Origin: Planctomycetota bacterium
GTDB taxonomy: Bacteria; Planctomycetota; Phycisphaerae; UBA1845; UTPLA1
NCBI GenBank assembly: GCA_016235815.1
Contig: JACRIM010000028.1
Span: 62,001-126,000, forward strand
Reading direction: 5' to 3'
Length of the DNA stretch: 64,000 nt
Below, piece by piece: positions 38,329-56,446 of this stretch. The position numbers were made by a program, and so were the translations under genes. The notes below the pieces were generated by a model. It was given only the letters and a program-made list of their open reading frames with translations, searched no databases and was not told where the DNA came from. Within the stretch, counting starts at the first letter, position 1. Every line of letters starts with the position of its first letter.

Positions 38329-40389
38329 TTAGTCTTCGTTCTTGGCGTCGCCGCGGGCGAAGATGCTGGCGACGTAGTTAAGCACGTCGGTCGCGCTGGT
38401 TTCGTTGTAGCCGAAGTATTTGATCAGCCGCTGCTTCACCACGTCGATCTTGGCCTGGGTCTCGTCATCGACCACGCCGCTGACCACATTCTTCAGCTTG
38501 ATCGTGTCGCGCTGATCTTCAAACATTTTCAACTCAAGGGCCTTTTGCAGCCGGGCGTTGGTGCTGTACTCAAACTTCTTGCCGTCGAGGGCGAGCGCGC
38601 CGATGTAGTTCATGATCTCCTGGCGGAAATCATCCTTGCGGCTGTCGGGGATGTCGATCTTTTCTTCGATCGAGCGCATCAGCCGCTCATCCGGTTCCTC
38701 GTCCTTGCCGGTGTATTTGTTTCGCACCTTCTCACGCTGCGTATAGGCGCGGACGTTTTCGATGTAGTTCGCCGCGAGCCGCTTGATTGCGTCTTCGTCG
38801 GCGCTGATGGCCCGCTGCACCTCGGCCTTGAGGGTGTCTTCGTACTCCTCGCGGACGACGGTGAGCATTTCCTTATATTGCTTCTTCAATTCTTCGTCGG
38901 CGATGAGCGAATGATGGGACAGGCCGCTTTCCAGTTCGTTCATCACCATGAACGGGTTGATGCACTTGTCCTGAATCGCCTGGTCGCTGACGAGGGCGTT
39001 CGAAATCTTGTCCTGAATGTAGCGCGGGCTGATTCCCTGCATGCCTTCGCGACGCGATTCTTCCATGATCTCTTTCACGGAGTCCTCGGTGTAGCCGGGG
39101 ATGCTCTTGCCGTTGTAGAGCTTCAGCTTCTGCAACCGCGTCAGGCCGGCCTTCTTCGGGTCTTCCAATCGCGTCAGCAAGGCCCACATGGCCGCGGTCT
39201 CGATGGTGTGCGGCGCGATGTGGATGCCGCGGATGCGCTCCTTGTTGAAGTCTTTCTCGTAGATCTTGATCTCTTCATCCAGGATGATGTTGTAGGGCAC
39301 GTCGATCTTGATCGTGCGGTCGCGGAAGGCCTCCATCAGCTCGTTATTCTGGAGCTTCTTGTATTCCGGCTCATTGGTGTGGCCGATGATGACCTCGTCG
39401 ATGTGCGTCTGAGCGAATTTCTTGGGCTTGATGACGTGCTCCTGCGACGCGCCGAGCAGGTCATACAAGAACGCCACGTCGAGCTTCAACACTTCGATGA
39501 ATTCGATCAGCCCGCGATTGGCGATGTTCAACTCGCCGTCGAAGTTAAATGCCCGCGGATCGGAGTCGGACCCGTACTCGGCGATCTTGCGATAGTTAAT
39601 GTCGCCGGTGAGTTCCGTGCTGTCCTGATTCTTTTCGTCCTTTGGCTGAAACGTGCCGATGCCGCGGCGATCCTTCTCGCTGACGAGGAGCCGTCGCACG
39701 ACGATATGCTCCATCACCTTTTTCCAGTCGCCGTTGTATTGCCGAAGGAAATCGTCATACGTCTTGCGGCAGAACGGGTCGAGGTCGCCCTCCACGACGA
39801 TCCGTTGCTCGGCCGGAAGCGATTCATTGATCATGGCCAGCACATCCTTGCGCACATCGCGCGGGATGAGCTTCAGCGGCTCTTCGTGCATGGGGCACTC
39901 GGTCACATCGACGGTCCCGTTGGGACGCGGGATGCGCCACGAGAAGGTGTACATCGCGCCCTCATCGGTGCGCGAGTAGGCCTCAATGCCCTTCTTGAGC
40001 AGGCGACACATCGTCGACTTGGCCGAGCCGACCGGGCCGTGCAACAGAAGAATTCGATGTTCCGTGCCGTAGCCGTGCGCTGCGGACTTGAAGAAGTCGA
40101 CCAGTTGCATCAGCGGGCGCTCGAGGCCGAAGATGGCGTCGTCGCCGTGGCCGATCGGGTCGGAGAAAAACTTGTAGCGCATGTGGTCCTGGCGGAACTT
40201 GGAATACCGCTCAGCCCCATACTGCATGATCATGTCATAGATGCGCTGGAAGGCATTCCGCGCCACGCGCGGGTTCTTGGTGACGATATCGAGGTAGTCG
40301 TCAAAGGTGCCTTCCCAGTGTTCATCGCGGAATGTTTGCGGGTCCAGCCGTTTGTCGACCAGATCCCAGATTGCTTTTTTGTTGACCAT
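38329..40389 (-). CDS. prkA: PrkA-family serine protein kinase
   Basis: PrkA proteins are AAA-like serine kinases linked to stress, nitrogen starvation and sporulation. From the ATG at 40389 (GGGAGG 8 nt upstream) the protein has 686 residues, the normal length. A Walker A motif is in [18 protein letters not shown] (about residue 100), with family stretches such as [34 protein letters not shown] and [14 protein letters not shown]. The usual partners yeaH and spoVR are not adjacent. A TTGACT-17-TAATAT promoter lies about 120 bp upstream. Confidence 0.94.
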
Positions 40390-40506
40390 GTCCCGTGCCT
40401 CCCGCGCGTCGCGGTTGTTCGGTCGTCCGGCGGGTAGTCGCCGTTTCTGAATTGATCGGATTGCCGCACGGCCCTCGGCCATTGGAATCCGAGCACGCTC
40501 CTACCC

Positions 40507-40827: not shown

Positions 40828-41103
40828 GGGTGTTCTCCTTTTTCCTTTGCCTGAGTTTCTCTTTGCCCGGTGACCGGGACGAACGGAGTGGGAGCAATCC
40901 CCATGCCACCGGCTGCGCAGCGCGTGCGATTTCGTGCAGCGCGATAAGAGCGTGCGCGTTGGCGGCGCATTCATGATTTCGTTTTCGGAACGCTGCGCGC
41001 GCGGACCTTCTCGAAAAAAGTGGGAAGAAGTGCGCAGAGGTGGGTGCGGATTCCCCGAAAGTGGTTGACGACGCCGGGGCCTCTTATCGGCGTTGGGTAA
41101 TTC

Positions 41104-53734: not shown

Positions 53735-53919
53735 AGGGGTACACCGGCCGCGCGGAGGTGGTCCACGTGCCGGGCAGATGATAAAGTCGTCGTTAGCCCC
53801 TGTCAAACCGGATTTTATGCGCGGAAGGGGTGATTTCCCGCCGGTTTTCGTCGGGTTCCCAGCTTAGGACTGTGGTACCGGCTTCTTGAACGATGGCAGG
53901 TACCGGAGTCATGAACTGT

Positions 53920-53940
53920 GGCACCGGTTTTCAACCGGTG
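53920..53940. repeat. REP-like hairpin, CACCGGTT/AACCGGTG
   Basis: A perfect 8-bp stem (53922-53929 and 53933-53940) with a TTC loop. Including the two leading G residues, the 21 bases match the minus-strand copy at 1591-1611 except at one stem pair, where C-G here replaces A-T there. Confidence 0.7.
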
Positions 53941-54377
53941 ATCTTCGTTACCGACGTCTCTCCATGCATGTCAACACTAGCCCCAAGGGGACGACTTAGC
54001 CTCAGCTAGCGGCCGTTGATCTCAATTAATGCCGGTACCAGTCACGGTGCCCTCTTACCCCCCTTTGAGTCTATGCAGAAGAAAGTGTGCTAAGTCGAAA
54101 TCAATGTGGGTGTTAAAGTCCACCAATCAAAGGCAGGGGGCCTGTGTGACAATGAAGCACTTGGTGTGAAAGACGTTTCACCGCGTTTCTCATTTTTTTC
54201 CGACTACATGTAATTTCGGATGAACTTGTGATCATCAGGTATTGAATAAAAGCTAGCGACCGTACACCCGCCTGCCACAATGGCAGTTCTTGTGAGTGAA
54301 CTCATGTTTTGGCAGAACTAACTTCTCTCGTCCACCCACTTTCCGGTTTGAAATACGCCATTTCCCGTCGTCGAAAG

Positions 54378-54393
54378 TGGCACGGTTCTTGCT
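54378..54393 (+). promoter_or_regulatory. Sigma-54 (-24/-12) promoter
   Basis: TGGCACG (54378-54384), four bases, then TTGCT (54389-54393) match the RpoN consensus exactly, with the GG and GC doublets 10 bases apart. It lies about 74 bp upstream of the ATG at 54467. Sigma-54 promoters need an ATP-dependent activator, so expression should be switched by a specific signal. Confidence 0.85.
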
Positions 54394-54466
54394 TTAACTG
54401 TTTGGAGCTTCGTGGCGGGCAATCCGTGGGGATACTCGGCTTCGGAGCAAAATAGGAGCCCAGACT

Positions 54467-55141
54467 ATGCCGACTTTAAAGCCGCCGCCGCGCCCGGACA
54501 TCGAAATCCGACGTGCTGTTCATCGTTACTTTTATGACCGCAACAAGGTCGGAACGAGCATGAGGGGTAAGAAGGGCGTGTCCGCCAAGATCAGCGTGGT
54601 ACAGTCCGAATTGAAAACGGCGCATGGCCTATCGCGCGCCGAAGTGACACGTGCCGTGGCATACCTGATCGATCAGGGATGGGTCACGACCGATGAGATT
54701 CACAAGACGTTTACCACTAATCAGGGTACGGCGATTCCTTCGAGCGTACTTTATTACCGCATTAGTGCTGCGGGCGTTGACAAGATAGAAGGCGAGGGTG
54801 AGTACACCATGCCAAAGTTTCACGGTATCAACATCAGCGCGACCGGGCAAAACATCATCACACTTGGCGACAACAATCAGGTGGACGCCAAGTACGAATC
54901 CATTGCCAACAGACTTATCGAGTTTAAGGACGTGGTCAGAAAGGCTAGCGATGTGAATGACGCGGACAAAGTCTCCATCATCGCCGACATTGACACGATG
55001 GAAAGCCAGTTGGCGAAGCCGGAACCGAACCGCACAGTCCTGCGAGCGATTTGGGCCGGAATCGAGAAGGTTGCGACCGCAACTTCACTCGCTGCAAACG
55101 TGGCGGCCATCGCTCCCTGCCTATCGCCACTGCTCGGTTAA
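54467..55141 (+). CDS. Orphan sigma-54-driven protein, winged-helix-like with helical C-terminal module
   Basis: The 224-residue protein starts after a clear AGGAG. Residues 10-110 look like a winged-helix domain (GLSRAEVTRAVAYLIDQGWV, then a strand-rich stretch). Near residue 118 comes HGINISATGQNIITLGDNNQ, a phrase seen in many bacterial accessory proteins. The rest is helical, including DIDTMESQLAKPEPNR and a hydrophobic end (SLAANVAAIAPCLSPLLG). This tail resembles C-terminal modules of some putative phage-defence or effector proteins, but that link is weak. Isolated in a gene-poor, repeat-rich stretch, it looks acquired. Function unknown. Confidence 0.65.
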   Translation: MPTLKPPPRPDIEIRRAVHRYFYDRNKVGTSMRGKKGVSAKISVVQSELKTAHGLSRAEVTRAVAYLIDQGWVTTDEIHKTFTTNQGTAIPSSVLYYRISAAGVDKIEGEGEYTMPKFHGINISATGQNIITLGDNNQVDAKYESIANRLIEFKDVVRKASDVNDADKVSIIADIDTMESQLAKPEPNRTVLRAIWAGIEKVATATSLAANVAAIAPCLSPLLG

Positions 55142-55206
55142 CTCGCTCGCACCGGAAAAGCGATTCTCTGGCGCATCCGTATTGCCACGGCGTCATAAGC
55201 GAGTAG

Positions 55207-55229
55207 GGTGGGTTCTTCCTGAACCCACC
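55207..55229 (+). terminator. Hairpin after the orphan gene
   Basis: GGTGGGTTC (55207-55215) and GAACCCACC (55221-55229) form a perfect 9-bp stem with a 5-nt loop, about 65 bp beyond the stop at 55141. Only a short TTT follows, so termination is possible but not certain. Its GTAGGGT lead-in resembles that of the minus-strand repeat at 5858-5956. Confidence 0.45.
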
Positions 55230-55900
55230 ATTTCCGAACAAACGCATACCATTTCCCTATCCACAACTGTGATACCCTGCGCAATTTGCGGATCCAACTG
55301 CCTACCTAACAAACACCTATAACAATTCACAGCCGCGCGCGAAACACTGATCAAGATTGATAAGCGTATGGACAGAACCCCGGGGACTCCGCGCCCGCAC
55401 CATGCCAATCCGCACCAGCCGCGCGCGATGCAAACGGAGTTCTGTCATGTTGAGAAGCAACATAGTCAATCTCGTGGCCGCTTGGCCCCTCGACCCCCTG
55501 GGCCCCCGATCCCCTTGTCCCCCGGTCCCCTCAGAAGTACGCCGGCAAACGCCAGCAAATGCCAGCACTTTTTCATTTCCCACGCCATTTTGCCGCAATT
55601 CCAGCCCCGCGTCGCGCAGCGGCCCCCCTCCTCCTCGCAGTTTACCAGCCGCGGTTGGTGCCTGTGTGCCTATGTCTCTATGTGCATGGTCAGCCCTGTT
55701 CGCCGTTCCCTCAGTCCCTCACCCCTTCCTCCGGCTCACGCCCTTCATCTCCACACGCTTCTTCGTCTTCCAGTCGTTCCACTTATCGATTGTCCAGTCC
55801 ATGATTATTAGGAACCGTCACCCTTGTTCTCGCCTCCTGAACCTCAGTTCGCTCAATATTCTATCGCAATCGCGAAATGGAGGCCACGAAGTGTTAGGCG

Positions 55901-56027: not shown

Positions 56028-56425
56028 CTATGCAGAAAACAGGACACGGGAAGTGATTCCGTTTGGAGTGGGTGCGAGATGGGAATCTCGCACCAGCCGT
56101 AAATTTGGGTGCGAGAAAGGATTCACGCACCAGCACGTGGGTGCGAGAAAGGATTCTCGCACCAGCACGTCTATGTAGAAAACAGGACACGGGAAGTGAT
56201 TCCCTTTGGAGAGGGTGCGAGATGGGAATCTCGCACCAGCCGTAAATTTGGGTGCGAGAACGGATTCACGCACCAGCATAATTCACGCACCAGCACGTGG
56301 GTGCGAGAAGGGATTCTCGCACCAGCATAGAACGGATTCACGCACCAGCATGAAGGGATTCACGCACCAGCATGGGTGCGAGAAGGGATTCTCGCACCAG
56401 CAGAGAAAGGATTCACGCACCAGCA
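56028..56425. repeat. Dense palindromic repeat array (GGTGCGAGA family) with a 108-bp direct duplication
   Basis: About eleven GCACCAGC-ended units occupy 400 bp. Full units are hairpins with stems such as GGTGCGAGAA/TTCTCGCACC or GGTGCGAGAT/ATCTCGCACC and 4-nt loops; others are right halves only. A 108-bp block at 56028-56135 recurs at 56171-56278 with about four differences. No conserved spacers or genes are included. The array ends about 20 bp from the stop of the next minus-strand gene. Confidence 0.85.
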
Positions 56426-56446
56426 GCGTACGCGCGCGAATCGCCG

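Follow-up and report, generated by a model that had tools for sequence, protein, structure and literature searches.

The window, the whole 64,000-nucleotide stretch of DNA considered in the current analysis, contains a 224-codon gene (54467-55141, + strand) whose product is, by homology, a winged-helix protein related to restriction- and defence-linked proteins. The gene is preceded by an exact match to the sigma-54 promoter consensus, TGGCACGGTTCTTGCT, at 54378-54393 (+). It is made up of a -24 element TGGCACG (54378-54384), of a spacing class that is enriched genome-wide, and a -12 element TTGCT (54389-54393), both identical to the consensus. The GG (54379-54380) and the GC (54391-54392) are separated by 10 bases, which corresponds to the GG-N10-GC core, and the match and spacing claimed in the original prediction of a textbook sigma-54 promoter are confirmed. 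From sigma-54 geometry, transcription is predicted to start at a G at 54404, 12 nt after the -12 C, which would give a 5' untranslated region of 63 nt (54404-54466). A ribosome-binding site, AGGAG (54454-54458), can be read 8 nt before the ATG. A scan of positions 53800-55600 for sigma-70-like promoters scored none, with 1.1 expected in shuffled sequences.

The sigma-54 -24/-12 consensus has been given as TGGCAC-N5-7-TTGCT (PMC12316311). The site at 54378-54393 shares with known RpoN promoters the core, the spacing and the distance to the gene, in a genome with rpoN and activators, and differs from them in its defence-linked target gene and in the base preceding TGG, which is a G in place of the pyrimidine of the full consensus. 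This G counts against the reading as a sigma-54 promoter; it is also found at five sites of the same genome that precede PEP-CTERM-type genes. No other such site was said to exist in the window, and this holds for exact matches. When up to two mismatches are allowed, 8 matches are found against 6.6 expected, so that only the perfect match stands out. The core is also kept in a one-mismatch site, TGGCATGGGGATTGCT at 40893-40908 (-). A gene for a PrkA-like serine kinase (38329-40482, -; named by eye) starts about 410 nt downstream of it.

Sigma-54 promoters need an activator, and the Salmonella regulon was defined with one that is promiscuous and constitutive (PMC3844500). The original prediction could not hold in a genome devoid of rpoN and had called for a genome search for enhancer-binding proteins and for further sites of the same kind. 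The assembly holding the window (4.58 Mb in 60 contigs, 95% complete) encodes one copy of rpoN, which is full-length (DNA-binding domain, E 2.8e-51) and whose product has a Gln-rich region I and the RpoN box. Seven strong enhancer-binding proteins with the Sigma54_activat domain have been identified, three of which have a canonical GAFTGA-type loop (GAFTGA, GAFSGA or GSFTGA). Two of their genes are located about 27 and 36 kb downstream of the site on the same contig; this closeness is no evidence of a link to the site.

The search for further sites has revealed 38 occurrences of TGGCAC-N5-TTGC in the genome, as against 13 of the reversed pattern. Allowing any spacing from 0 to 14 yields 152 matches, 114 of which are distributed over the 14 other spacings (mean 8.1 each); the 38 at N5 correspond to a Poisson P of about 3e-14. 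Coding potential was scored around all 38 sites and around 40 controls of wrong spacing, and the gene contexts were judged from the sequence stretches. Non-coding DNA holds 26 of the 38 sites and 10 of the 40 controls (P 0.0002), with about 2 expected by chance per spacing. Twelve sites, including 54378-54393, lie just upstream of a co-directed gene, compared with 2 controls (P 0.003; about 0.4 expected per spacing); the five PEP-CTERM sites, which have long leaders, escape this automatic count, and one or two of the coding contexts in it may have been misjudged. Inspection by eye places about 17 sites before a gene. With five paralogous copies among the 38, somewhat fewer sites are independent. 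Since 26 non-coding sites are seen against about 2 and 12 upstream sites against about 0.4 expected, over 90% of the TGGCAC-N5-TTGC sites so placed are estimated, as a class, to be real promoters.

The N-terminal part of the 224-codon product (residues 11-99; 54497-54763, +) is predicted to be a winged helix-turn-helix, on the basis of a weak MarR_2 match and of the predicted structure. The AlphaFold model, obtained with three sequences (mean pLDDT 74), has a winged helix over these residues and four helices after short strands in the C-terminal part. The structural search ranked winged-helix proteins highest, at weak significance, those of the N-terminal part being wHTH/PadR-like (E about 0.05); with the C-terminal part it gave no match. 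The C-terminal module (residues 121-223; 54827-55135, +) is comprised of a short beta segment with GQNIITLGDNNQV followed by the four helices. Family libraries gave, apart from weak winged-helix matches, a match of residues 122-214 to the PADLOC candidate defence family PDC-M14B (PDLC04448 and others; E 1.5e-9). The likeness covers the C-terminal 95 or so residues and only positions 166-256 of the 275 of the profile, and the N-terminal half of the product differs; as the whole profile is not matched, the product is, on this comparison, not a full member of PDC-M14B. Searches of Rfam and of PDB sequences, and a literature search on PDC-M14, returned nothing.

The C-terminal module, a GxNIITLGDGNxV-like segment with four helices, has also been observed joined to very different N-terminal parts. 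It ends a Roc-COR-like protein (L069) and the protein of L071, which is adjoined by a C5-methyltransferase-like gene (both named by eye). No Pfam or NCBIfam model matched this module of defence-type proteins in the current analysis, and it possibly serves these proteins as a common module for assembly or effector function.

The gene was described as an orphan in the original prediction. This description does not stand, as homologs that match over the full length are encoded in clusters of type I restriction-modification or other defence genes. Five have been identified, with identities of 28-51%. The PDC-M14B profile run through the class recovered L068 (51% identical over the full length) and L070 (30%), and a three-sequence profile recovered L073 within the phylum and L076 and L077 on contigs of a viral collection; no homologs were found in plasmids and phages. 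The one match among genome contigs, in Poribacteria (L042), was rejected: judged by eye, it is a brief, fortuitous likeness within a UvrD-type helicase. Type I restriction genes adjoin four of the five homologs: HsdM, RhuM, HsdS and AAA_13 in L076; HsdM, HsdS and HsdR in L077; HsdS in L073, where the homolog starts at the end of the hsdS gene; and in L068, together with an IrrE-type peptidase, a protein that resembles HsdS but falls slightly short of the Pfam cut-off. L070 is adjoined by other conflict-type genes, NOV_C and PRTase-CE. The homologs in L068, L070 and L077 start about 20 nt or less from the end of the preceding gene, or overlap it. The 350 nt upstream of the homologs in L068/L072, L070, L076 and L077 hold no sigma-54-like site, and because none of these four has one, the coupling to sigma-54 is not ancestral, which counts against the promoter reading.

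Whereas full-length homology relates the 224-codon gene to these restriction-linked winged-helix accessory genes (L068, L073, L076 and L077; 28-51% identity), it differs from them in having no adjacent hsd gene, in having its own promoter and in being more divergent. It does not lie in an hsd cluster, and tblastn with the neighbour genes of the homologs detected no hsd fragments or remnants in the window. A canonical HsdM is not encoded in the genome: the best PF02384 match scores 54.8 bits, against 335-346 bits for the HsdM proteins of L076 and L077. A single-sequence search of 149 related genomes did not recover the gene. Nine of ten relatives within the family retain the nusA-ugpC order; beyond ugpC, none has the 224-codon gene or the gene that follows it here. 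Because it is absent from relatives, the gene was probably acquired horizontally. L068, L076 and L077 are mutually 69-79% identical and about 50% identical to the 224-codon product. The reading frame is intact over its full length, and changes amount to 0.32-0.40 at codon positions 1-2 against 0.57-0.68 at position 3. Judged from this concentration at third positions, the gene is still under purifying selection, yet diverging faster than its homologs.

Two dyads upstream of the site are placed like activator sites and are possible, putative regulatory elements: CTGCCA-CAA-TGGCAG (54272-54286), centred about 125 nt before the predicted +1 and a candidate activator site, and GTGAAA-GACG-TTTCAC (54166-54181), centred about 230 nt before it and a candidate regulator site. 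TGCCA-N3-TGGCA occurs at 4 places in the genome against 6 for the reversed control and is therefore not above control. The copy of GTGAAA-N4-TTTCAC at 54166-54181 is the only exact one in the genome, and with up to one mismatch the pattern is found at 11 places against 1 for its reversed control. Neither dyad recurs upstream of other sigma-54 sites of the genome, nor was a conserved activator site common to those promoters found, a point against the promoter reading; in this the site departs from known sigma-54 promoters, no activator site having been identified for it by the present search.

Intergenic DNA in many places of the genome carries a dispersed hairpin repeat, GTGGCAC(C/A)GGTTTTCAACC(G/T)GTG, with copies at 53918-53940 and at 1613 (-) of the window and tandem runs at L058. 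As GTGGCAC also begins this repeat, the local background for the site is raised. It is improbable that 54378-54393 is a chance match or a decayed copy of the GTGGCACCGGTTTTCAACCGGTG hairpin repeat, with the gene transcribed from another promoter or not at all, although a copy lies 460 nt upstream (53918), a 14-nt stretch is 79% alike, and copies elsewhere yield the near-match TGGCACCGGTTTGC with a spacing of 4. The site has no palindromic second half and folds no better than shuffled sequences (z 0.46), and the dozen sites upstream of genes far exceed the number attributable to chance. With rpoN and enhancer-binding proteins present, and with both the spacing and the upstream position enriched in the genome, 54378-54393 is quite likely a functional sigma-54 promoter of the 224-codon gene.

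Such a promoter might still bind the RpoN holoenzyme and, for want of a nearby activator site, be mainly poised or silent, with the gene effectively cryptic and decaying after the loss of the restriction-modification cluster to which it belonged. The solitary gene, the lack of a canonical hsdM in the genome and of hsd remnants in the window, the faster divergence and the failure to find a common activator site would suit this; the intact full-length frame, the excess of third-position changes and the good ribosome-binding site speak against it, and we hold it to be unlikely, though somewhat less so than a chance or repeat-derived match.

The best reading of the locus is an acquired, defence-linked winged-helix gene that is now transcribed from a sigma-54 promoter, and the explanation as a whole, such a promoter with a one-gene, on-demand winged-helix transcript, is considered likely. 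RNA polymerase with RpoN would bind the -24/-12 elements, and the closed complex would wait until one of the cell's Fis-type enhancer-binding proteins, at an upstream position, responds to its signal and opens it. A transcript of one gene would start near 54404 and encode a DNA-binding protein in which a winged helix is joined to a helical C-terminal module; produced only when needed, this protein would most likely act as a regulator or as a detached component of defence. That the gene is held for a specific condition, as originally proposed, is plausible from established sigma-54 biochemistry. We offer only as a tentative suggestion, with the chances lying against it, that a physiological signal sensed by an enhancer-binding protein, rather than phage infection as such, switches on this detached family member as a defence-type component. 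Among promoters of its known kind this one is ordinary, and the interest lies in its coupling to a defence-linked gene; a separate on-switch for a relative of a defence family is mildly surprising. A literature search on RpoN with restriction or phage defence returned no title or abstract bearing on this coupling. If confirmed, it would link a defence-associated protein family to a tightly gated sigma-54 regulon, and about 17 candidate sigma-54 promoters, the PEP-CTERM set included, would be listed in this genome.

Sigma-54 sites before PEP-CTERM genes have been reported for Proteobacteria (Haft et al. 2006, PMC1569441). Sites of the same kind precede five PEP-CTERM-type genes here (C-terminal PEP motif by eye), namely L004, L005, L010, L020 and L028, at C6:1499, C8:21617, C11:167927, C29:12494 and C40:83265 of the genome (G000), respectively. 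Upstream, these five paralogs have in common a conserved box, TCGG-TTTTGTGGCACGCGAATTGCTG, that extends over considerably more than 100 nt and in which the sigma-54 site is identical or nearly so, and their leaders are long (about 210-275 nt) and themselves conserved. Unlike them, the 224-codon gene has neither a PEP-CTERM signal nor this upstream box. Other sites precede, by eye from the translations, glutamate-dehydrogenase-like, CoA-transferase-like and trehalose-phosphate-synthase-like genes, a receiver-domain gene and genes of secreted proteins. Downstream of the 224-codon gene, degenerate repeats like GGGTGCGAGAAAGGATTCTCGCACCAGC are clustered at 56080-56430 in a long non-coding stretch.
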